Part shown: piece after piece, positions 7,307 through 44,410 of the stretch | Numbering within the stretch: position 1 is the first letter of the stretch | Layout of the letters: each line of letters begins with the position of its first letter | NCBI RefSeq assembly: GCF_000021325.1 | Contig: NC_011365.1 | Span: 1 to 64,000, forward strand | Reading direction: 5' to 3' | DNA from: Gluconacetobacter diazotrophicus PA1 5 | GTDB lineage: Bacteria; Pseudomonadota; Alphaproteobacteria; Acetobacterales; Acetobacteraceae | Length of the DNA stretch: 64,000 nt | The notes under the pieces: generated by a model | Databases searched by the model: none | What the model saw: only the letters and a program-made list of their open reading frames with translations | What the model was told of the DNA's origin: nothing | Position numbers and translations under genes: made by a program

Positions 7307-7973
7307 GCTGGCCGGCGATGTGGGGGATTTCGGTCATCGAATCGGCGCCGATCGTGGCGCCGGCTTCCATGTCCGGACGGCCGTAGCCCCACCGGGCGAA
7401 GACCGAGCGCACGTGGGCGCCCTTGGCCGCGAAGATGTCGTTGTGATGGTCGCCCACCATGATCGCGCGGTCGGCATGGCCATGGGCCAGCCCGATCGTG
7501 CCCAGCAGGTGGGCGGGGTCCGGCTTGCGGACCGGGAAGGAATCGCCGCCGCCGATGGCGTCGAACCATTCCGTCAGTCCCAGTTCACTGACGATGCGCC
7601 GCGCCGCCGCCACCGGCTTGTTGGTGCAGATGGCCAGGGTCCAGCCCGCGTCCCGCAGCGTCTTCAGGGCATATTCGGTGCCGGGGAACGGTCGCGACTG
7701 TTCGGTCGCGCGCGGCGTGTAGTCCGCCATGTAGCGGTCCACGGCCTGCTGCACGTCGATTCCCGCCGCAGGCGTGCCGGCGTGGGCCAGAAGGCGGCGC
7801 ACCAGGGCCGCCACGCCGTCCCCCACCATGCCGCGAACCAGGTCGGGCGAAATCCCGGGCAGGCCATACCCGGTCAGCAGCCGGTCGGCGCTGGCCGCCA
7901 GGTCCGGCAGGCTGTCCAGCAGGGTGCCGTCCATGTCGAACACGGCGATGCGGGGCGTGGGGGTGGCGGGCAT
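7293..7973 (-). CDS. gph: Phosphoglycolate phosphatase, HAD family
   Basis: A 226-residue haloacid dehalogenase-family phosphatase. The nucleophile motif I FDMDGTLLDS lies near residues 12-21, motif II near AICTNKP, and motif III/IV near MVGDHHNDI. The family member Gph removes phosphate from 2-phosphoglycolate formed during DNA repair, though HAD specificity cannot be fixed from sequence alone. The frame is open upstream to 8057, but the ATG at 7973 has AGGAGA directly upstream and gives a normal-length protein. Its 3' end overlaps the DUF3108 gene by 14 bp, and its 5' end is divergent from glmU. Confidence 0.85.
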   Translation of the reverse strand: MPATPTPRIAVFDMDGTLLDSLPDLAASADRLLTGYGLPGISPDLVRGMVGDGVAALVRRLLAHAGTPAAGIDVQQAVDRYMADYTPRATEQSRPFPGTEYALKTLRDAGWTLAICTNKPVAAARRIVSELGLTEWFDAIGGGDSFPVRKPDPAHLLGTIGLAHGHADRAIMVGDHHNDIFAAKGAHVRSVFARWGYGRPDMEAGATIGADSMTEIPHIAGQLIPA

Positions 7974-8080
7974 GACGTCTCCTGCAAGATGGCGGTCGGC
8001 GGGATGGGCGATGCGATCGATCGCAGTATTTCGTAAACCTAAGTGATGCTCATGCATTGCGCCAAGGTTTGACAGGTCCG

Positions 8081-9490
8081 ATGCCCGCCCGCTACCCGCA
8101 TGCCATGAATGCCACCGTCCCGTCCGCGGCGCCCGCTGACCTGCCCGCCCATCGTCCCGCCACCGCCGTCATCCTGGCGGCCGGGATGGGGACGCGCATG
8201 AAGTCCGATCGTCCGAAGGTGATGCACCCGCTGGCCGGGCAGCCGATGCTGCGCTACCTGCTGGACAATGCCGCCTCGGTCTTCGACCGGATCGTCGTCG
8301 TGGTCGGGCCGGGCATGGAGCAGGTCGCCGCCCTGGCCGCGCCGCACGCCGTCGTGGTGCAGCAGGATAGGCTGGGCACCGCCCATGCGGCGGCTCAGGC
8401 GGCCGACCTGTTCGGGTCCGGCGATGTCGCGGTCCTGTATGGCGACAACCCGCTGATCACGGTGGCCAGCATGCGCCGCATGCTGGCATGCCGGGCGGGC
8501 GAGGGGGGCAATGAGGGGGCTGGCCTGGCCCTGATGGCCATGCGGCCGCGCGATCCCGGACGCTATGGCCGCGTGGTGACGCAGGACGGGCTGGTCCGGC
8601 GCATCGTCGAATGGGCCGACGCGTCGGACGAGGAGCGGGCGATCACCCTGTGCAATGCCGGCGTGCTGTGCGCGGGGGCGGAGGATTTCCGCCGCTGGCT
8701 GGGTGCCGTGCGCAACGATAACGCCCAGGGCGAGTATTATCTGGGCGACGTGGTGGCCATGGCGGTGGCCGAAGGACGGCAGGTCCGTGCCGTCGAAGCA
8801 CCCGAGGACGAGTTGCGCGGCATCAATTCCCGTGCCGAACTGGCCGAGGCCGAAGCCTGCGTGCAGCGCCGGCTGCGCGCCGCGGCGCTGGATGGCGGGG
8901 CGACGCTGGTGGCGCCCGAAACGGTGTTCCTGGCCGCCGACACGGTGCTGGAACCCGACGTTCTGGTCCAGCCCCATGTCGTCTTCGGGCCGGGCGTGAC
9001 GGTGCGGCGGGGGGCGGAAATCCGCGCCTTCAGTCATCTGGAAGGCTGCGTGGTCGGGCCGGGGGCGCTGATCGGCCCCTATGCGCGGCTGCGGCCGGGC
9101 AGCGATGTCGGGGCCGCCGCCCATGTCGGCAATTTCGTCGAACTGAAGGCCACGACCCTGGGGGCGGGGGCGAAGGCCAATCACCTGTCCTATCTGGGCG
9201 ATGCGACGATCGGCCCGGCGACGAATATCGGCGCGGGCACGATTACCTGCAATTATGACGGGGTGTTCAAGCACCGGACGGAAATCGGCGCGGGATGCTT
9301 CGTGGGCTCGAACGCGATCCTGGTCGCCCCCGTGCGGATCGGCGACGGCGCGCTGGTCGCTGCCGGCAGCGTCATCACCCAGGATGTGCCGCCCGACGCC
9401 ATGGCGCTGGGCCGGGCCCGGCAGACGAACAAGGACGGACGCGGGGCCAGCTTGCAGGCGGCGCTGCGCAGGAAGAAGGAACAGGGCTGA
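8081..9490 (+). CDS. glmU: Bifunctional UDP-GlcNAc pyrophosphorylase / glucosamine-1-P acetyltransferase
   Basis: GlmU makes UDP-N-acetylglucosamine, the precursor of peptidoglycan and lipid A. The N-terminal uridyltransferase half shows the nucleotide-binding loop LAAGMGTRMKSDRPKVMHPL, and the C-terminal half is a left-handed beta-helix of hexapeptide repeats ending in the acetyl-CoA region (GAGTITCNYDG, VGSNAILVAPV). With the ATG at 8081 the protein has 469 residues; a TTG at 8057 and an ATG at 8105 are other in-frame candidates, and the ribosome site is weak for all three. The stop overlaps the glmS start as ATGA at 9487-9490, so the two pathway enzymes are translationally coupled. Confidence 0.95.
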   Translation: MPARYPHAMNATVPSAAPADLPAHRPATAVILAAGMGTRMKSDRPKVMHPLAGQPMLRYLLDNAASVFDRIVVVVGPGMEQVAALAAPHAVVVQQDRLGTAHAAAQAADLFGSGDVAVLYGDNPLITVASMRRMLACRAGEGGNEGAGLALMAMRPRDPGRYGRVVTQDGLVRRIVEWADASDEERAITLCNAGVLCAGAEDFRRWLGAVRNDNAQGEYYLGDVVAMAVAEGRQVRAVEAPEDELRGINSRAELAEAEACVQRRLRAAALDGGATLVAPETVFLAADTVLEPDVLVQPHVVFGPGVTVRRGAEIRAFSHLEGCVVGPGALIGPYARLRPGSDVGAAAHVGNFVELKATTLGAGAKANHLSYLGDATIGPATNIGAGTITCNYDGVFKHRTEIGAGCFVGSNAILVAPVRIGDGALVAAGSVITQDVPPDAMALGRARQTNKDGRGASLQAALRRKKEQG

Positions 9491-11313
9491 TGTGCGGCAT
9501 TGTCGGCGTCGTCGGGTGCAAGTGTGCGACCCCGGTCATCTTCGACGCCCTGCGGCGGCTGGAATATCGCGGCTATGATTCCGCCGGGATCGCGACCCTG
9601 GTCGACGGCCGGATCGAACGGCGCCGCGCGGCGGGCAAGCTGGACAACCTGGCGGCGCTGCTGGAGCGCGAGCCGCTGGCCGGCGTGACCGGAATCGGCC
9701 ACACCCGCTGGGCGACCCACGGCGCGCCGACCGAGAACAATGCCCACCCCCACGGCACCGAACGCGTCTCGGTGGTCCATAACGGCATCATCGAGAATTT
9801 CGAGGAATTGCGGCGCGAACTGGAGCAGGCCGGTCACGTCTTCACGACCGAGACCGACAGCGAAACCGTCGCCCAGTTGGTCGATTTCCACCTGGCGCGG
9901 GGCCTGTCGCCGCGCGACGCGGCCTTCGCGGCGCTGCGCCGGCTGGAGGGCGCCTATGCGCTGGCGATGCTGTTCGCGGGTCATGACGGGCTGGTCATCG
10001 GCGCGCGGCACGGCGCGCCTCTGGTCGTGGGCTATGGCGAGCAGGAGATGTTCCTGGGATCGGACAGCCTGGCCCTGGCCCCGCTGACGCGGCGCATCGC
10101 CTACCTGGATGACGGGGATTGGGTGGTCGTGACGCGGGACGGCGCCGAATTCTTCGATGCCTCCGGCGAACGGGTGGAACGCGCCGTGCGCACCACCGCG
10201 CTGATCGCGGGTTCGGTCGGCAAGGACGGCTATCGCCACTACATGGAAAAGGAACTGCACGAACACCCGGTGGTGATCGGCCAGACCCTGCAGCGGCTGA
10301 TCGACCCCGCCACGCGGCGGGTCGTGCTGCCCGACCTGCCGTTCGACTTGGCCAGCGTGCCGCGCGCCGTGGTCACGGCATGCGGGTCGGCCTTCTATGC
10401 CGGCATGATCGGCCGTTACTGGCTGGAAGGCATTGCCCGCCTGCCGGTCGATATCGATGTGGCCAGCGAGATGCGCTATCGCGATCCGCCGCTGACGCCG
10501 GGCGGGCTGGGCCTGCTGATCTCGCAATCCGGCGAGACGGCGGACACGCTGGCCGCCTTGCGCGGCATGCGTGCCCGCCAGCAGCACATCGTGTCGGTCC
10601 TGAATGTCGAGCAGAGCACGATAGCCCGCGAAAGCGACGTCGTGCTGGGTACGGTCGCCGGCCCCGAGATCTCGGTGGCCAGCACCAAGGCGTTCACCGC
10701 GCAATTGTCGGTCCTGGCCTGCCTGGCCATCGCGGCGGGCCGCCTGCGGGGCACGGTGTCGGCCGAGCGCGAGCAGGAGATGGTGGCGGCCCTGCTGGAC
10801 CTGCCCAGCCGGGCGAGCGAGGTGTTCGACCAGGCCCCGGCGATCCGCGAGATGGCGGCGGTCGTGGCGAACGCGCGCGACGTGCTGTATCTGGGGCGCG
10901 GATCGTCCTTCCCCGTCGCGCTGGAAGGCGCGCTGAAGCTGAAGGAAGTGTCCTATATCCACGCCGAGGCCTATGCCGCCGGCGAGATGAAACACGGACC
11001 GATCTCGCTGATCGACCAGACGGTGCCGATCGTGGCCACCGTGCCGTCCGGCCCCCTGTTCGAGAAGACGGTGTCGAACCTGCAGGAAGCCCGCGCCCGT
11101 GGCGGCCGCCTGCTGGTCTTCACCGACACGAAGGGCGCCGAGCGCCTGCGGGGGCTGGCGGAAATCGTGGTCGCGATACCGACGGTCGATGAATTCACGT
11201 CCCCCGTGCTGCAGACCATCCCGGTGCAGATGCTGGCGTACGAGGTTGCGCTGCTGAAGGGCACGGACGTGGACCAGCCCCGCAACCTGGCCAAGTCCGT
11301 CACCGTCGAATAA
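9490..11313 (+). CDS. glmS: Glutamine-fructose-6-phosphate aminotransferase (isomerizing)
   Basis: GlmS makes glucosamine-6-phosphate from fructose-6-phosphate and glutamine, the first committed step to amino sugars. The 607-residue protein begins MCGIVG, so the catalytic Cys is exposed after Met removal (Ntn glutaminase domain, 1-about 220). Two SIS sugar-isomerase domains follow, with SQSGETADT near residue 345 and the C-terminal DQPRNLAKSVTVE that closes the active site. It overlaps the glmU stop by four bases. No glmS ribozyme is expected or seen in this lineage. Confidence 0.97.
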   Translation: MCGIVGVVGCKCATPVIFDALRRLEYRGYDSAGIATLVDGRIERRRAAGKLDNLAALLEREPLAGVTGIGHTRWATHGAPTENNAHPHGTERVSVVHNGIIENFEELRRELEQAGHVFTTETDSETVAQLVDFHLARGLSPRDAAFAALRRLEGAYALAMLFAGHDGLVIGARHGAPLVVGYGEQEMFLGSDSLALAPLTRRIAYLDDGDWVVVTRDGAEFFDASGERVERAVRTTALIAGSVGKDGYRHYMEKELHEHPVVIGQTLQRLIDPATRRVVLPDLPFDLASVPRAVVTACGSAFYAGMIGRYWLEGIARLPVDIDVASEMRYRDPPLTPGGLGLLISQSGETADTLAALRGMRARQQHIVSVLNVEQSTIARESDVVLGTVAGPEISVASTKAFTAQLSVLACLAIAAGRLRGTVSAEREQEMVAALLDLPSRASEVFDQAPAIREMAAVVANARDVLYLGRGSSFPVALEGALKLKEVSYIHAEAYAAGEMKHGPISLIDQTVPIVATVPSGPLFEKTVSNLQEARARGGRLLVFTDTKGAERLRGLAEIVVAIPTVDEFTSPVLQTIPVQMLAYEVALLKGTDVDQPRNLAKSVTVE

Positions 11314-36639: not shown

Positions 36640-38586
36640 ATGGTTTCTGATATCAACGTGTTTTCTCTGGCGACCGCGATGCGGGACCAGCGCCGCGAAG
36701 TCGAGATGAGTCTGTCCGACTATCTCGAACAGTGCCGCACGGACCCGTCCTGCTACGCGACCGCGGCGGAACGCATGCTCAAGGCGATCGGCGAGCCACG
36801 AACCGTCGATACGTCCCGCGATCCGCGCCTGTCACGCATCTTCATGAACCGCACCCTGCGGATCTATCCCGCCTTCTCGGATTTCTACGGCATGGAGGAG
36901 ACGATCGAGCAGATCGTCGGCTTCTTCCGGCACGCGGCGCAGGGGCTCGAGGAACGCAAGCAGATCCTCTATCTGCTCGGCCCCGTCGGTGGCGGCAAAT
37001 CGTCGCTGGGCGAACGGCTGAAGGCCCTGATGGAGAAGGAGCCGATCTACGTGCTCAAGGCCGGGCGGCATATCAGCCCGGTGTTCGAAAGCCCGCTGGG
37101 CGTGTTCGATCCCGACCGCATGGCCGGCGTGCTGGAGGAGCGGTACGGCATTCCCCGCCGGCTGCTGGGCGGCGTCGCCAGCCCCTGGGCGCTGAAGCGG
37201 CTGGAGGAGTTCGACGGCGACCTGTCGCGCTTCAGCGTGGTGAAGCTGCATCCCTCGCGCCTGCGCCAGATCGCCATCGCCAAGACCGAACCGGGCGACG
37301 ACAACAACCAGGACGTGTCCGCCCTGGTGGGCAAGGTCGATATCCGGCAACTGGAGCATTTCAGCCAGAACGATCCCGACGCCTACAGCTTCTCGGGCGG
37401 CCTGAACCGCGCGAACCAGGGGCTGCTGGAATTCGTCGAGATGTTCAAGGCGCCGATCAAGATGCTGCACCCCCTGCTGACCGCGACGCAGGAAGGCAAC
37501 TATGTCGGCACCGAGAATATCGGCAGCATCCCGTTCACCGGCGTGATCCTGGCCCATTCGAACGAGGCCGAATGGCAGACCTTCCGCAACAACCGCACGA
37601 ACGAGGCCTTCCTGGACCGCGTCTGCGTCATCAAGGTGCCGTACTGCCTGCGGGTGACCGAGGAAACCCGGATCTATGAAAAGCTGGTCCAGTCCTCCAG
37701 CCTGGCCGAGGCCCCGTGCGCGCCCAACACGCTGGAAATGCTGGCCCGCTTCGCGGTGCTGTCGCGGCTGAAGCCGCACCCGAATTCGGCGCAGTTCGCC
37801 AAGATGCGGGTCTATGACGGCGAAAACATCCGCGAGACCGACCCCAAGGCCCGCACCATGCAGGAATATCGCGATGCGGCCGGCGTGGACGAGGGCATGG
37901 ACGGGATTTCCACCCGCTTCGCCTACAAGGTGCTGTCCGCGACCTTCAACCATGATTCGGCCGAGATTTCGGCCGATCCGGTGCATCTGATGTATGTGCT
38001 GGAACAGGCGGTCCGGCGCGAGCAGTTCCCGCCCGAGGTCGAGGCCACCTACCTGGCGACCCTGAAGTCGGAACTGGCCGGCCGGTACGCCGAATTCCTG
38101 GGGCACGAGATCCAGAAGGCCTATCTGGAAAGCTACAACGACTACGGCCAGAACCTGTTCGACCGTTATCTGGACTACGCCGACGCATGGATCGAGGACC
38201 AGGATTTCAAGGACCCCGATACCGGGCAGATGCTGAACCGGGAACTGCTGAACGCCGAGCTGACCAAGATCGAGAAGCCGGCGGGCATCGCCAATCCCAA
38301 GGATTTCCGGAACGAGGTGGTCAAGTTCTCGCTGCGCGCGCGGGCGGGCAATGGGGGACGCAACCCGTCATGGACGTCCTACGAGAAGATCCGCGACGTG
38401 ATCGAGAAACGGATGTTCAGCCAGGTCGAGGACCTGCTGCCGGTCATCAGCTTCGGGTCCAAGAAGGACGGGGAAACCGAGCGCAAGCATGACGAGTTCG
38501 TCGAGCGGATGGTCTCGCGCGGATATACGGAACGACAGGTCCGCAGGCTCGTTGAGTGGTACATGCGGGTCAAGCAGTCTGCGTGA
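36640..38586 (+). CDS. prkA: PrkA-type serine protein kinase (YeaG-like)
   Basis: A 648-residue AAA+-related kinase. Walker A GPVGGGKSS lies near 114-122, and the PrkA C-terminal kinase-like domain follows. In E. coli the homologue YeaG is induced by nutrient stress and stationary phase. The following two genes are yeaH (DUF444) and spoVR (ycgB), a widely conserved three-gene stress operon also found in bacteria that never sporulate. The ATG at 36640 follows a GGTTCGGAGACATCTGCCG leader with a GGAG site. Confidence 0.92.
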   Translation: MVSDINVFSLATAMRDQRREVEMSLSDYLEQCRTDPSCYATAAERMLKAIGEPRTVDTSRDPRLSRIFMNRTLRIYPAFSDFYGMEETIEQIVGFFRHAAQGLEERKQILYLLGPVGGGKSSLGERLKALMEKEPIYVLKAGRHISPVFESPLGVFDPDRMAGVLEERYGIPRRLLGGVASPWALKRLEEFDGDLSRFSVVKLHPSRLRQIAIAKTEPGDDNNQDVSALVGKVDIRQLEHFSQNDPDAYSFSGGLNRANQGLLEFVEMFKAPIKMLHPLLTATQEGNYVGTENIGSIPFTGVILAHSNEAEWQTFRNNRTNEAFLDRVCVIKVPYCLRVTEETRIYEKLVQSSSLAEAPCAPNTLEMLARFAVLSRLKPHPNSAQFAKMRVYDGENIRETDPKARTMQEYRDAAGVDEGMDGISTRFAYKVLSATFNHDSAEISADPVHLMYVLEQAVRREQFPPEVEATYLATLKSELAGRYAEFLGHEIQKAYLESYNDYGQNLFDRYLDYADAWIEDQDFKDPDTGQMLNRELLNAELTKIEKPAGIANPKDFRNEVVKFSLRARAGNGGRNPSWTSYEKIRDVIEKRMFSQVEDLLPVISFGSKKDGETERKHDEFVERMVSRGYTERQVRRLVEWYMRVKQSA

Positions 38587-38605
38587 ACGGGAATGGTGTC
38601 GCCCA

Positions 38606-39913
38606 GTGGATATTATCGACAGACGTCCCAATCCCCATGGGAAGAATATCGAAAATCGGCGGCGCGTGCTGCAGCGCGCCCGTGCCGCCGTGCAGAAGGC
38701 CGTGCGCGATTCGGTCGCGCGCGGCAAGATCAGGGAGGTCGGGCAGGGAAATGCGGTGTCGATCCCGTCGGACGCGCTGCATGAGCCCACCTTCCACCGC
38801 GTCTTTTCCGAGGGTGTGCGCGAGATCGTGCTCACCGGTAACCGCGAGTTCTCGCGCGGGGACCGGCTGCAACGCCCGCCGGGCGGCGTAGGGCAGGGCG
38901 GTGGCGGCGAAGGGCAGGGCGGCGAAAAGGGGGGCGGCGAGGATTCCTTCCGCTTCGTGCTGAGCCGCGACGAATTCCTGGACCTGTTCTTCGACGACCT
39001 GGAACTGCCGGACCTGGTCAAGCGCGAGATCGCGGCCACCGAGACCAGCAAGCCCACCCGCAGCGGGCTGAGCAACGAGGGCGCGCCGTCGCACCTGGAT
39101 CTGGGGCGGACGATGCGGCGGTCGATCGCCCGGCGCATCGGGCTGGGCCGTCCCAAGCCCGACGACCTGCGCGAGATCGAGGCCCGGATCGCCGAACTGG
39201 AGGACCGCCGGCCCCTGGGGACCGAGGATCTGGACGAACTGGAATCCCTGTGCGAACGCCGGGGCACGCTGCGCCAGCGCCTGGCACGGATTCCGTGGGT
39301 CGATCCGGTCGATCTGCGGTTCCGCCGCTATACCGTCGTGCCGCAGCCGGCGACGCGGGCCGTGATGTTCTGCATCATGGACGTCTCGGGCTCGATGACC
39401 GAGCGGATGAAGGACCTGGCGAAGCAGTTCTTCCTGCTGCTGCACGTCTTTCTGGAGCGGCGGTACAAGAAGGTCGAAATCGTCTTCATCCGCCACGCCG
39501 AAAGCGCCGAGGAGGTGGACGAGGAAACCTTCTTCCACGATCCGCGCACCGGCGGGACCATCGTGTCCTCGGCGCTGGAACTGATGTCCAGCATCCAGCG
39601 CGAGCGCTTTCCGTCGGGAAGCTGGAACATCTATGTCGCGCAGGCGTCGGACGGCGACAATGCGTCGTCCGACACCACCCGGACCGCCAGCCTGCTGCGG
39701 GACGAGATCCTGCCGGCGGTCCAGTACTATGCCTATATCGAAATCACGGGCTCGGGGGCGGTTATCCGTGGCGAGACCGACCTGTGGCGCAGCTACCGGA
39801 CGATCGCGGATGAAAACGACCACCTGGCGATCCGGCAGGTCGGCGACCGCAAGGAAATCTTCCCCGTTTTCCGCGAACTGTTTTCCCGACAGCACGACAC
39901 GGCGGAGGCATGA
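38606..39913 (+). CDS. yeaH: YeaH/DUF444 von Willebrand-like protein
   Basis: A 435-residue protein of the DUF444 family. The GTG at 38606 gives VDIIDRRPNPHGKN; no other start exists downstream of the prkA stop that keeps the conserved N-terminus. A Gly-rich, low-complexity linker (about 90-115, GGVGQGGGGEGQGGEKGGG) separates an N-terminal part from a C-terminal VWA-like domain with MDVSGSMTER (DxSxS MIDAS metal motif) near 258-267. It works with PrkA and SpoVR in an unknown stress process. The stop overlaps the spoVR ATGATGA. Confidence 0.9.
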   Translation: MDIIDRRPNPHGKNIENRRRVLQRARAAVQKAVRDSVARGKIREVGQGNAVSIPSDALHEPTFHRVFSEGVREIVLTGNREFSRGDRLQRPPGGVGQGGGGEGQGGEKGGGEDSFRFVLSRDEFLDLFFDDLELPDLVKREIAATETSKPTRSGLSNEGAPSHLDLGRTMRRSIARRIGLGRPKPDDLREIEARIAELEDRRPLGTEDLDELESLCERRGTLRQRLARIPWVDPVDLRFRRYTVVPQPATRAVMFCIMDVSGSMTERMKDLAKQFFLLLHVFLERRYKKVEIVFIRHAESAEEVDEETFFHDPRTGGTIVSSALELMSSIQRERFPSGSWNIYVAQASDGDNASSDTTRTASLLRDEILPAVQYYAYIEITGSGAVIRGETDLWRSYRTIADENDHLAIRQVGDRKEIFPVFRELFSRQHDTAEA

Positions 39914-41481
39914 TGAACCAGATCACGCCCAAAGGCGGTGGGGATGGGGGCGGCGCCCGGCCGGGCGGCCTGCTCTATTCCGGCAATGACTGGAACTTCC
40001 AGATCCTCCGCGATTGCTACGATGCGATCGCCGAGATCGCGGACAAGGAACTGGGGCTGGAACTCTATGCCAACCGGATCGAGATCATCACGTCCGAACA
40101 GATGCTGGACGTCTATACCTCGCACGGGATGCCGCTGGGGTACAAGCACTGGTCGTTCGGCAAGCGCTTCATCGGGCATGAAAACGCCTATCGCCGCGGA
40201 CTGATGGGCCTGGCCTACGAGGTCGTCATCAATTCCGATCCCTGCATCAACTATCTGATGGAGGAAAATTCGGCGACGATGCAGGCGCTGGTCATCGCCC
40301 ACGCCGCGTTCGGCCATAACCATTTTTTCCGCAACAACCGGCTGTTCCGCGAATGGACGGACCCGTCGGAGATTTTGGACTACCTGGAATTCGCCCGCGG
40401 CTTCATCGCGCGGTGCGAGGAACGGCACGGCGTGCGCGCGGTGGAGCGAATCCTGGATGCCGCCCACGCCCTGCAGAACCAGGGCGTCCACCGTCATTCG
40501 GGCGCCCGCAAGCTGGATCTGAAGGCCGAGCAGCAGCGCGCGCGCGAACGGCGCGCCTATGAAGACAGCATGTTCAACGATCTGTGGCGCACCCTGCCCA
40601 CCGAACCGGCCGGCGAGGAAGGGCAGGCCGAGGGCGCCCTGGCACGGCGCCTGCTGGGCCTGCCCGAGGAAAACCTGCTCTATTTCCTGGAAAAGAACGC
40701 CCCCCGCCTGGCGTCGTGGGAGCGCGAGATCATCCGGATCGTGCGGATGGTCGCGCAATATTTCTACCCGCAGCCCCAGGTGAAGATGATGAACGAGGGC
40801 TGCGCCACCTGGGTGCATTCCTACATCATGCGCCGGCTGCATGAACTGGGCCGGATCGACGACGCGGCGTATCTGGAAGTCATCCATTCCACATCGAATG
40901 TGATCAGCCAGCCCGGTTTCGATGCCGGCGGCGGACCGTCCTTCAATCCCTACGCGCTGGGCTATGCGATGATGACCGACATCGCCCGGATCTGCGAGAC
41001 ACCCACCGAGGAGGACCGGACCTGGTTCCCCGATATCGCCGGCAACGGCGACCCGATCGGCACCCTGCGGCATGCCTGGGCGGAATACCGGGATGAAAGC
41101 TTCATCCAGCAATTCCTTTCCCCCAAGGTGATCCGGGATTTCCGCATGTTCCGCCTGCGCGACGACACCAGCCAGCCCTACCTGCTGGTCGACGCGATCC
41201 ATGACGAGGCCGGATATCGCGACATCCGCCGCAGCGTGGCGCTGACCTACGATCCCGGGACGTTCTATACCGAAATCGAGATCGTGGATGTGGACCTGCT
41301 GGGCGACCGCACCCTGGTGCTGGAACATCGCAGCCGCACCGGCCAGATGCTCCAGCCCGGCGATGCGCGGCAGACGCTCGATTATCTTGCATTATTATGG
41401 GGTTATGGCGTCATCCTGAAGGAAATCGACAGCCAGACCGGAACCGTCGTCACCACCCATTCGGCCAAACCATCCGCATAA
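39910..41481 (+). CDS. spoVR: SpoVR family protein (YcgB-like)
   Basis: A 523-residue SpoVR homologue; the name comes from Bacillus spore-cortex formation, but the family is common in Gram-negatives. Conserved blocks include GMPLGYKHWSFGKRF (near 76-90) and VMIN-type NSDPCINYLMEENS (near 112-125), HAAFGHNHFF near 135 and NEGCATWVHSYIM near 296-308. Either ATG at 39910 or 39913 could start it. It completes the prkA-yeaH-spoVR operon and is followed directly by a CGCCGGG/CCCGGCG hairpin. Confidence 0.9.
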   Translation: MMNQITPKGGGDGGGARPGGLLYSGNDWNFQILRDCYDAIAEIADKELGLELYANRIEIITSEQMLDVYTSHGMPLGYKHWSFGKRFIGHENAYRRGLMGLAYEVVINSDPCINYLMEENSATMQALVIAHAAFGHNHFFRNNRLFREWTDPSEILDYLEFARGFIARCEERHGVRAVERILDAAHALQNQGVHRHSGARKLDLKAEQQRARERRAYEDSMFNDLWRTLPTEPAGEEGQAEGALARRLLGLPEENLLYFLEKNAPRLASWEREIIRIVRMVAQYFYPQPQVKMMNEGCATWVHSYIMRRLHELGRIDDAAYLEVIHSTSNVISQPGFDAGGGPSFNPYALGYAMMTDIARICETPTEEDRTWFPDIAGNGDPIGTLRHAWAEYRDESFIQQFLSPKVIRDFRMFRLRDDTSQPYLLVDAIHDEAGYRDIRRSVALTYDPGTFYTEIEIVDVDLLGDRTLVLEHRSRTGQMLQPGDARQTLDYLALLWGYGVILKEIDSQTGTVVTTHSAKPSA

Positions 41482-41666: not shown

Positions 41667-42893
41667 ATGCCCTCTGAGCGGCGTTACGGTGCCATCCGCC
41701 CTCTGGCCGCCCCGCTGACCGTCGCCGCCCTGCTGGGCGCGGCGATCCTCCAGCCCCTCGTCCCCCCGTCGGGGGCCCGCGCGGCCGAACCCATCCTGCA
41801 GACCGAGGAGAGCGACATCGTGACGCTCCCGCCCGGCGGCCCGCATCGGGTCCTGGTGCAGGACGGGGTGTACCGTCACAGCAAGGACGGGCGCGTCTAT
41901 GTGGTGGACCTGGACAGCGGCAAGCTGCTGGGCATGGTCCAGGCGGCGTATAACGCCAACGTCGCCGCCGACCCGGCGGGCAGGACGTTCTACGTCGCCG
42001 AGACGGCGTGGGAGCGGGGCAATCGCGGCAGGCGCCACGACATGCTGGTGGCGTACAATCCGCTGACGCTGGAACCGACGCTGGACATCGACCTGCCCAG
42101 CCGCGCGCTGATCACGCCGAAGAAGGCCGACATGGCTGTCAGCGCCGACGGGCATTACGTCTATGTCTACGATACCAGCCCGACCAATTCGGTCCACGTC
42201 TTCGACGCGGCGCGCAAGGACGTGGTGCGCACGGTGGACGTACCCGGCTGCGCGCTGGTCTATCCGTGGGGCGGGGCGGGGTTCTCCTCGATCTGCGGTG
42301 ACGGATCGCTGGCCAACGTGGCGCTGGACAAGACGGCCACACCCAGCCTGACCCATACCGCGCCCTTCTTCGTGCCCGACCGCGACCCGGTCTTCGAACA
42401 CAGCCCGCAGGTCGCGGCCAGCGGGCATGTCTGGTTCATTTCCTACAGCGGGCTGGTCTACGACACGACGCTCGGGCCGCAGTCGAAGATCGGCGCGCCG
42501 TGGTCGATCCAGGCTGCTGCCGGGTTGAAGCCGGCCTCCGACGCGCGGGCCCCGTTCGCGGTGACGTGGCGGCCGGGCGGGTGGCAACTGGCGGCGGTGC
42601 GGGCGCGGGATTCCCACCTGTTTATCCTGATGCATCGGGGTCCGTTCTGGACCCACAAGGACGCGGGCACCGAATTGTGGGAACTGGACCTGAAGACCCG
42701 CAAGCTGGTGCGGCGCATCCATCTGGCGGCGCCCAGCATGATGGTCGGCGTGACGCAGGACGCGGCCTCGCGCATCATGCTGACCGATGAAGCCGGGGAC
42801 CTGACGGTGCTGGACGGCGCCACCGGCGCGCCGGTACGCACGATCAGGAACCTGGGCGAAGCGCTCATCTTCACCGTGGCACCAGGGGAATGA
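41667..42893 (+). CDS. Amine dehydrogenase heavy chain (MauB/AauB-like)
   Basis: A 408-residue periplasmic beta-propeller subunit. The signal region (MPSERRYGAIRPLAAPLTVAALLG..ARAAE) is followed by repeated blade motifs, for example RVYVVDLDSGKLLGMV, HYVYVYDTSPTNSVHVFDA and GDLTVLDGATGAPVRTIRN. The early AETAWERGNRGRRHDMLVAYN is characteristic of methylamine/aromatic amine dehydrogenase heavy chains. It binds the TTQ light chain encoded next. The gene stop overlaps the light-chain start region (ATGA at 42890-42893), an unusually direct heavy-light arrangement without mauE/mauD between them. Confidence 0.9.
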   Translation: MPSERRYGAIRPLAAPLTVAALLGAAILQPLVPPSGARAAEPILQTEESDIVTLPPGGPHRVLVQDGVYRHSKDGRVYVVDLDSGKLLGMVQAAYNANVAADPAGRTFYVAETAWERGNRGRRHDMLVAYNPLTLEPTLDIDLPSRALITPKKADMAVSADGHYVYVYDTSPTNSVHVFDAARKDVVRTVDVPGCALVYPWGGAGFSSICGDGSLANVALDKTATPSLTHTAPFFVPDRDPVFEHSPQVAASGHVWFISYSGLVYDTTLGPQSKIGAPWSIQAAAGLKPASDARAPFAVTWRPGGWQLAAVRARDSHLFILMHRGPFWTHKDAGTELWELDLKTRKLVRRIHLAAPSMMVGVTQDAASRIMLTDEAGDLTVLDGATGAPVRTIRNLGEALIFTVAPGE

Positions 42894-43474
42894 CGCGCGT
42901 GACGGAGACCCGGAACGACATGGAGCGCAACGGTTTCGATCGCTTGACCGAACGGCTGGCCCGCTATCTGGCGGGCCGGTCCTCGCGACGCGGCGCGCTG
43001 GCGCGGCTGGGCGGCTGGGCGGCGTCCGTCCCGCTCTTTCCGCTGCTGCCGGTCTGGCGGGGCGACGCCCGGGCGGCGGACGCGCCCGCGGCCCCGTCGG
43101 CGGCCCCGTCACCCTTCGCGGCGAAGGCGCAGGCCAAAGACGACACGAAGTGCGATTACTGGCGGTATTGCGCCATCGACGGCAATCTGTGCACCACCTG
43201 CGGCGGCGGGGTGCATAGCTGCCCGCCCGGCACGCATCCGTCGCCGACCTCGTGGATCGGGACCTGCTTCAACCCGCAGGATCGCCGGTCGTACCTGATC
43301 GCCTATCGCGACTGCTGCGGGCAGGATGCCTGCAACGAGCAGAACTGCCTGGGTACCGACGGCGACCTGCCGACCTATCGCCCGCAGGCCAATAACGACA
43401 TCATCTGGTGTTTCGGGACCGGCTCGCTTCTCTATAACTGCTCGACAGCCGCAATCGTAGGAACCGCTGAATGA
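42890..43474 (+). CDS. Amine dehydrogenase TTQ light chain (MauA/AauA-like)
   Basis: The 194-residue catalytic subunit carries the tryptophan tryptophylquinone cofactor made from two Trp residues. A long Tat-type leader is present (RSSRRGALARLGG, then a hydrophobic run ending GDARAAD). The core begins KCDYWRYCAIDGN. TTQ tryptophans are in TSWIGTC (Trp57-equivalent) and DIIWCFG (Trp108-equivalent), and the active-site aspartates in CAIDGN and YRDCCG are kept. Compared from memory with the Paracoccus light chain, one disulfide pair is moved (see findings). Its stop overlaps the cytochrome ATG at 43471-43474. Confidence 0.93.
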   Translation: MTRVTETRNDMERNGFDRLTERLARYLAGRSSRRGALARLGGWAASVPLFPLLPVWRGDARAADAPAAPSAAPSPFAAKAQAKDDTKCDYWRYCAIDGNLCTTCGGGVHSCPPGTHPSPTSWIGTCFNPQDRRSYLIAYRDCCGQDACNEQNCLGTDGDLPTYRPQANNDIIWCFGTGSLLYNCSTAAIVGTAE

Positions 43475-43932
43475 AGAAAATCCTTACCCTGGCCGCCACT
43501 CTGTCCCTGGCCGGGGCGACGACCGCTTTTGCCGCGCCGGATGGCCAGGCGCTGTACGGGGCCAATTGCGGCATCTGCCACCAGGGTGGCGGCGTCGGCG
43601 CGCCGGGCCAGTTTCCGCCCCTGGCGAACCGGATCGACAAGATCGCCTCGACCCCCGAAGGCAAGAAATACGTGACCCAGGTGCTGGTGAACGGCCTGGC
43701 CGGCTCGATCCAGGCGGGGGGCGCGACCTATGTCGGCTTCATGCCCAGCTTCAAGAGCCTGCCCGACGACCAGATCGCGGCCATCCTGACCTATCTGTCG
43801 TCGCTGGGTTCGACCAAGCCCGCCCCGGTCTTCGCGGCGGCCGATCTGGCGGCGGCGCGTGCGGCGCCGATGTCGTCCTCGGCCGTGGCCGCGGCCCGAA
43901 AGACGCTGAATGCGGCGCATCCCCTTCCGTAA
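43471..43932 (+). CDS. Periplasmic monoheme cytochrome c of the amine dehydrogenase cluster
   Basis: A 153-residue exported cytochrome c with a clean Sec signal (MKKILTLAATLSLAGATTAFAA) and one heme site CGICH near residue 32; the likely Met ligand is in VGFMPSFKSL near 92. An Ala-rich tail follows (115-150). It overlaps the light-chain stop and probably accepts electrons from TTQ in place of amicyanin. Its 3' end overlaps the next cytochrome by 23 bp in another frame. Confidence 0.88.
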   Translation: MKKILTLAATLSLAGATTAFAAPDGQALYGANCGICHQGGGVGAPGQFPPLANRIDKIASTPEGKKYVTQVLVNGLAGSIQAGGATYVGFMPSFKSLPDDQIAAILTYLSSLGSTKPAPVFAAADLAAARAAPMSSSAVAAARKTLNAAHPLP

Positions 43933-44410
43933 GTCGGTCTGGCCGGTCATCGCGGTTCTTGCGGTGGCCGGTCTTCTTCCGCCGGGGCCTGCAGCCCGGG
44001 CGCTGGACCGGACCCGCACGACCTACCTGACCAAATGCGGCGGATGTCACGGGATCGAGGGCCAGTCGGGCCAGACCTATATTCCGACCCTGCGTGACCG
44101 GATCGGGGTGCTGACCTGCACGGCGGAAGGACGGTCCTATCTGCTGGAGGTGCCTGGGGTGTCGATGTCGCTGATCCGCGACGACGCGTTGATGGCGCAG
44201 GTGATGAATTTCGTCCTGTTCGACCTCGGGGGCGCCAGCACGCCCCGGGGCACGGCGCCCTTCACCGCGCGCGAAATCCATGCCCTGCGCGGCCACCCGT
44301 TGGACACGACCGACCTGCCGACGGTGCGAGCGGCGGTGTGGGCGCGGGCGACGGCGGCCTGCGCGGCCCAAGCCGGTGGGCATTCCGGCGGGCGTTCCGG
44401 CACCTACTGA
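43910..44410 (+). CDS. Second monoheme cytochrome c-like protein
   Basis: A 166-residue exported protein: signal MRRIPFRKSVWPVIAVLAVAGLL..AARA, one heme motif CGGCH near residue 43-47, and a possible Met ligand in VSMSLIRDD or ALMAQVMNF. It starts inside the previous cytochrome gene and is the last of the four-gene amine dehydrogenase unit. It is too small, with only one heme, to be the diheme maturation enzyme MauG. Function as an electron carrier or assembly factor is inferred from position only. Confidence 0.8.
   Translation: MRRIPFRKSVWPVIAVLAVAGLLPPGPAARALDRTRTTYLTKCGGCHGIEGQSGQTYIPTLRDRIGVLTCTAEGRSYLLEVPGVSMSLIRDDALMAQVMNFVLFDLGGASTPRGTAPFTAREIHALRGHPLDTTDLPTVRAAVWARATAACAAQAGGHSGGRSGTY

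Follow-up and report, generated by a model that had tools for sequence, protein, structure and literature searches.

We analyzed the first 64,000 nucleotides of contig NC_011365.1 of Gluconacetobacter diazotrophicus PA1 5 (referred to here as the window), which contain a cluster of four genes for the heavy chain (H) and light chain (L) of a tryptophan tryptophylquinone (TTQ) amine dehydrogenase and for two monoheme cytochromes c, the first termed C1 and the second C2; E and D stand for MauE and MauD. C2 is a marker of TTQ clusters that lack mauG, and in clusters of this type TTQ is very probably formed independently of MauG. Judged from their sequences, the four window genes probably encode a periplasmic TTQ amine dehydrogenase of the aau type that would be served by E and D in trans and for which C2 would be the leading candidate to act in place of MauG. 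That C2 is itself a TTQ maturation factor is a possibility to which we give less than an even chance. To our knowledge, how TTQ forms without MauG has been an open question since the aau cluster was first described.

We found no mauF or mauG match beside the window cluster or beside a second TTQ cluster of the same genome (L085), and neither has the gene content of a mau cluster. Homologues of mauF, mauG, and amicyanin were also not found beside 80 named loci (phmmer, E 1e-5, flanks of up to 10 kb), which are the best 80 of 161 (L005-L084) and had been selected for similarity to the window L, so that counts based on them lean to the window type. Among 30 plasmid records with L, 14 were examined; nine were of the C2 type without nearby mauF or mauG, and five, from Paracoccus denitrificans, P. 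yeei, P. versutus, Methylobacterium DM1, and Indioceanicola, had mauF and mauG without C2. The nine plasmid loci and the named loci thus indicate that the absence of mauF and mauG is the ordinary state of this cluster type. A first annotation made from the window alone (the sequence-only reading) had held that aau clusters, like mau clusters, continue with mauG, mauF, and often amicyanin; this does not agree with the nine aau-type plasmid loci examined, beside which none of the three was found. The published aau cluster of A. faecalis reportedly has none of them either.

Two genome samples were then searched with the light-chain family PF02975, and the best 9 to 11 first-look candidates per genome were scored in these searches and in the C2 search of the phylum sample. 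In the phylum sample (398 genomes), 13 genomes matched, of which 11 had a full L, at 14 loci; in the class sample (385 genomes), 13 matched, and 11 further genomes had a full L, at 13 loci. Light-chain matches in G122 (internal stops) and G472 (23 residues) were excluded as TTQ genomes. The 27 loci of the two samples comprised 25 with C2 and without mauF/mauG, 1 with mauF and mauG and without C2, and 1 bare H-L pair. Over all 137 tallied loci, 86 of whose light chains form the named set chosen by similarity, the corresponding numbers were 130, 6, and 1, and no locus had both C2 and mauF/mauG. This tally does not include the 14 loci of a family sample (L142-L155; matches in 11 of 200 genomes) because several of them repeat other loci; C2 was present in all 14 and mauF/mauG in none. 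One genome, G885, holds both types, namely, a mauF-H-E-D-L-mauG-like locus without C2 (L226) and an H-E-D-L-C2 locus without mauF/mauG (L229).

Each of the 22 TTQ genomes in the two samples encodes C2, which was found at none of the 6 mauF/mauG loci. In the 398 phylum genomes, the C2 profile gave 14 matches of 131 to 169 bits, exactly in the 11 genomes with a full L, and the next match scored 49.5 bits; as the profile includes phylum-sample sequences, these high scores are partly a matter of construction. The class sample is independent, and there C2 was found in 11 of 11 new TTQ genomes at 117 to 146 bits. The idea of the sequence-only reading that the second cytochrome is a new factor in a different route to TTQ is strengthened by this co-occurrence; its attribution to the lineage is not, because the pattern belongs to MauG-less clusters as a type. 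The C2 gene of Asaia platycodi (L033, 10985-11439) is read in two frames, perhaps owing to an error in a draft assembly or to a broken gene.

C2 is a class I cytochrome c of the c552 kind, with a CXXCH motif and a cytochrome c fold. It contains a single CXXCH and matched no Pfam family, PF03150 (CCP_MauG) included, and no NCBIfam family at E 0.001, and it therefore differs from MauG-type proteins, which have two CXXCH motifs and match PF03150. A profile of 43 C2 sequences matched the Thermus thermophilus cytochrome c552 structure 1c52 with an E value of 7.6e-25, which is among its best matches, and other Thermus c552 entries were matched equally well. Profile positions 38-78 align with residues 9-49 of 1c52, and positions 82-138 align with residues 71-128. 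Only three profile positions thus correspond to the 21 c552 residues 50-70, a stretch that we take to include its Met ligand, Met69, and the loop is shorter by about 17 residues. The same deletion appears when C2 is aligned with C1. The distance from a GRxY-like motif to the next helix has a median of 24 residues in 142 C2 sequences versus 41 in 50 C1 sequences, and an MP motif is found in 0 of the 142 C2 versus 48 of the 50 C1 sequences measured (2 of 144 C2 and 17 of 67 C1 sequences were beyond measurement by these patterns). The residue in the short loop of 141 C2 proteins was M in 58, F in 25, H in 20, N in 11, R in 7, Q in 6, and another in 14; with such variation, no ligand is conserved there. 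Invariant in the 43 C2 sequences are C39, G41, C42, H43, G47, P55, N96, and R136 (numbering of the first alignment row). A Met sixth ligand in the distal loop, as in c552, is accordingly not a feature of the C2 family, although another ligand, or the Met that the window protein has in its short loop, might take its place. These alignments suggest that the C2 heme would be five-coordinate.

On this basis we tentatively propose, at rather less than an even chance, that C2 may be a new TTQ synthase: a single-heme protein derived from a c552, which would have given up its Met ligand and turned into a peroxidase-like oxidant, achieving with a single heme what takes MauG two, and which would provide the usual route in Pseudomonadota, with MauF/MauG as the minority. 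Several observations weigh against this proposal. (i) The constant co-occurrence of C2 and TTQ fits a dedicated electron carrier equally well. (ii) The short loop of the branch to which the window protein belongs keeps a Met (PGVSMSLI), which may still serve as a heme ligand. (iii) The AlphaFold model of C2 (19 sequences) is moderate and mostly helical (pLDDT 82.8), and its best Foldseek match is 1c52 itself (E 0.027, TM 0.60). (iv) MauG works with two hemes and C2 has one. (v) The C2 profile was scored on the best 9 first-look candidates of each phylum genome. (vi) The bare H-L pair at L223 (genome G809) implies that C2 need not share a cluster with the enzyme. No paper that treats C2 as a TTQ factor emerged from a literature search, whose coverage did not extend to most subscription journals.

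The main rival, which falls just short of an even chance, is that C2 serves only as a dedicated electron carrier, from TTQ to the respiratory chain or from H/L to C1, and that TTQ is made by an unrecognized enzyme or forms largely spontaneously. C2 is, after all, a relative of c552 whose gene is closely packed with those of the enzyme, and it is the only cytochrome found in many clusters (C1 was near 46 of the 86 named light chains); moreover, hemes without a Met ligand can still carry electrons. The loss of the ligand loop throughout the family, with a leftover residue that is not conserved, would nevertheless be unusual for a pure carrier, and C1 retains its loop. The lack of C2 at the 6 mauF+mauG loci is also less readily explained by a carrier.

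It is very improbable that TTQ is finished by a diheme protein of the MauG family encoded elsewhere in the genome. The possibility arises since the genome encodes two CCP_MauG (PF03150) proteins, at C1:314784 and C1:821461 (C1 before a colon denotes the contig). A PF03150 protein of this genome that is fused to a heme-binding domain has Met in the ligand region. The other protein (L087, C1:821461 region, 8171-9613) has a Tyr at the position of the heme-ligating Tyr of MauG; it adjoins phosphoesterase/phospholipase genes, however, and scored 100 bits against P. denitrificans MauG versus 112 bits for the Met-type protein at C1:314478. We searched 12 TTQ genomes with C2 for PF03150 at E 0.001. 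No match was obtained in 10 of them, and one match each was present in G402 and G405, which weighs against MauG-independent formation of TTQ; in the control genome G885, three matches included its own mauG-like gene. Three of the ten negative genomes are single contigs (G398, G266, and G610) and one consists of two (G728), and the weaker assemblies among them are G178 (89% complete) and G814 (8% contaminated). The 12 genomes had been picked as giving nothing to P. denitrificans MauG at E 1e-10 (6 of 30 and 6 of 11, from 41 searched), so that the figure of 10 of 12 does not apply to TTQ genomes at large; a protein resembling cytochrome c peroxidase (CCP) is encoded in most of the remaining 29 genome entries searched. 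Three pairs among the 30 entries (G123/G202, G174/G205, and G042/G209) have identical coordinates and were taken as the same genomes. Because PF03150 is not matched in 10 of the 12 genomes, the CCP proteins of G. diazotrophicus cannot be the general route to TTQ, although they might still act in this one genome. The search at E 1e-10 was itself dropped as evidence, as it overlooked the mauG-like gene of G885, which phmmer found at L226. Separately, two MauG-like matches, L197 (G590:C12) and L198 (G412:C1:600527), share 60% and 53% identity with P. denitrificans MauG; no TTQ genes were found beside them, a stop codon lies at or within each matched region, and the only light-chain locus of either genome is of the C2 type.

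The MauE and MauD genes missing from the window cluster are found in the same genome (3.9 Mb, 2 contigs). The window was searched over its 64 kb with P. denitrificans MauE, MauD, MauF, MauG, and amicyanin and with the E and D proteins of the genome itself (phmmer, E 1e-5); beyond the four open reading frames (ORFs) of the cluster nothing was found, and thus no homologue of E, D, MauF, MauG, or amicyanin, as the sequence-only reading had stated. The sole MauE above the Pfam cutoff lies at C1:2592593, about 2.55 Mb from the window cluster along the same contig, and is part of the second TTQ cluster, which has the order heavy-MauD1-light-C2-MauE-MauD2 (H-D1-L-C2-E-D2); its C2 paralogue lies at about C1:2592029-2592535. 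D1 has the motif CPIS where D2 and P. denitrificans MauD have CPVC, and it falls into a D1 lineage of its own, whose members occur close to TTQ clusters in many acetic acid bacteria. In FastTree trees of 44 E and 70 D sequences (midpoint root), the E and D2 proteins cluster with the E and D encoded between the H and L genes of Acetobacter, Komagataeibacter, and Asaia (support of 0.941 and 0.999), which indicates that E and D were moved and not lost. The closest named light chains come from 10 Gluconacetobacter species (83 to 90% identity to the window L). All 10 of these loci (L005-L014, flanks of about 10 kb) have the order H-L-C1-C2 without E or D, and all 10 genomes contain a MauE orthologue (66 to 71% identity), each inside an H-D-L-C2-E-D cluster (L132-L141). 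In the other acetic acid bacteria surveyed, E and D separate H from L in every window-type cluster whose contig extends over that region. We therefore hold with high confidence that E and D were split off to a paralogous cluster in this genome. The presence of both there rules out that the lineage lost every maturation gene.

The gene content of an aau-type cluster (H, L, E, D, and a downstream monoheme cytochrome, without mauF/mauG) is thus that of the genome and not of the window cluster alone, and E and D lie between H and L neither in the window nor at the 10 Gluconacetobacter four-gene loci. Of the two options left by the sequence-only reading, maturation encoded elsewhere or a different route, the first is borne out for MauE and MauD. 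That reading had also conceded that an ordinary mauFEDG set at another locus would reduce the case to a split cluster; this describes E and D, as in all 10 Gluconacetobacter genomes, but not MauF and MauG, neither of which lies beside the second cluster. The genome search it proposed thus yielded MauE and two MauD-like proteins, neither MauF nor MauG beside either TTQ cluster, and no match to the copper-protein domain PF00127 at E 0.001. L223 (G809:C4, 8109-9901) is a second case of splitting: an H-L pair with no E, D, C1, or C2 nearby, whose genome holds a complete H-E-D-L-C2 locus at another site. One Gluconacetobacter genome has a third TTQ cluster (L151, G123:C5), with the order H-E-D-L-C2, which falls outside the two common lineages of the light-chain tree. 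The remaining alternative, that the window cluster is a decaying duplicate that lost its helpers and encodes an unmatured enzyme, the second cluster alone being functional, would account for the absence of E and D here and in the 10 relatives but is the least probable of all, as the four genes have uninterrupted reading frames both in the window and in the 10 relatives, the light chains of these relatives remain 83 to 90% identical to that of the window, and the window L retains all 12 Cys and both Trp.

These data can be combined into a possible route. L would be exported by means of a twin-arginine-type leader, and MauE and MauD, whose role is established in the mau system, would assist in forming its disulfides. 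The single E/D set of the second cluster would serve the enzymes of both clusters and would thus act in trans on the window enzyme. L would then assemble with H, and two of its Trp residues would be converted to TTQ. In methylamine dehydrogenase (MADH), according to PMC6405878, two Trp residues of the precursor undergo a six-electron oxidation that MauG accomplishes by long-range electron transfer; PMC7876137 regards the first hydroxylation as probably autocatalytic. In the window enzyme, the open heme of C2 might instead use H2O2 or O2 to oxidize the L precursor, with no need for MauG. Substrate electrons would leave through C1, which has an intact Met-ligand loop (YVGFMPSF) and is the likely electron acceptor. 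It is accordingly plausible, from gene content, that electrons pass to cytochrome c rather than to a copper protein; the amicyanin of mau clusters has no counterpart in the genome.

Comparison with known systems places the window cluster as follows. (i) The aau example on the Pseudomonas aeruginosa RW109 plasmid LT969519 (L192) shares with the window H and L proteins related to aromatic amine dehydrogenase (AADH) and MADH. At both loci, no mauF, mauG, or amicyanin was found, and two monoheme cytochromes, the second a C2 relative, directly follow L. The E and D genes of L192 remain between those of H and L, whereas the window genome has both in the paralogous cluster. The likeness to aau is one of genes, from which an AADH function and an aromatic or aralkylamine substrate would be no more than predictions. 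In the A. faecalis aau cluster, orf-2 is said to be a monoheme cytochrome. (ii) The mau clusters of P. denitrificans (L089) and Methylobacterium (L186) have homologous H, L, MauE, and MauD; these loci contain MauF, MauG, MauJ, and amicyanin without C2, whereas the window genome contains C2 without mauF or mauG at either TTQ cluster. (iii) MauG, as described in PMC6405878, is a diheme protein with a Tyr-His six-coordinate heme that forms a bis-Fe(IV) state. With C2, it would have in common only the proposed role of finishing TTQ in the L precursor; C2 is like T. thermophilus c552 (1c52) in profile and fold and differs from it in missing the Met-ligand stretch. A search of PMC5023228 revealed no mention of mauG, mauF, or aromatic amine.

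The four genes and the relocated helper genes are listed in Table 1.

Table 1. Coordinates of the genes of the window cluster and of the E and D genes of the second TTQ cluster
Feature	Coordinates	Strand	Basis
H, TTQ amine dehydrogenase heavy chain	41667..42893	+	PF06433 E 1.6e-43
L, TTQ light chain with RR-type leader	42890..43474	+	PF02975 E 8.3e-51; TIGR02659
C1, class I monoheme cytochrome c	43471..43932	+	PF00034 E 2.6e-11
C2, monoheme c552-like protein	43910..44410	+	Single CXXCH; Thermus c552 profile match
E and D of the second cluster	about C1:2592540-2593660		Aau-type gene content
D1, MauD-like protein of the second cluster (L085)	about 7772-8401		

The assignment of a heavy chain, a TTQ light chain, and two cytochromes c, already made in the sequence-only reading, was supported by Pfam and NCBIfam for H, L, and C1. 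L scored 207 bits against TIGR02659 (cutoff of 197), and H scored 155 bits against TIGR02658, under the family cutoff of 454. The solved structures nearest to H are AADH and MADH heavy chains, with E values of about 1e-39 to 3e-36 and roughly equal closeness. L has 12 Cys residues, and both of its TTQ Trp residues (SWIGTC and NDIIWCFG) align with those of solved MADH light chains; AADH light chains are also among its structure matches. H adjoins L in the window, and an H gene was near 82 of the 86 named L genes, some contigs ending early. The tight overlaps noted in the sequence-only reading hold at 43471 (L/C1, 4 bases) and 43910 (C1/C2, 23 bases). The ATGA overlap of H and L at 42890 is doubtful: in 9 of the 10 Gluconacetobacter relatives, the first ATG, GTG, or TTG of the L frame is at least 24 bases past the H stop, its window counterpart is ATG 42920, and this codon is probably the conserved start of L. 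Upstream of the cluster, window positions 36640-41481 contain the prkA, DUF444, and SpoVR genes in a row, an ordinary conserved trio, and a nucleoside deoxyribosyltransferase-like gene lies downstream on the minus strand.

With E and D relocated, Gluconacetobacter is a natural setting in which to learn whether a single MauE/MauD pair can serve two TTQ enzymes. The survey turns the formation of TTQ without MauG into a testable question on one small protein with a seemingly opened heme site. If C2 does finish TTQ, a quinone cofactor derived from Trp would need no diheme bis-Fe(IV) machine.

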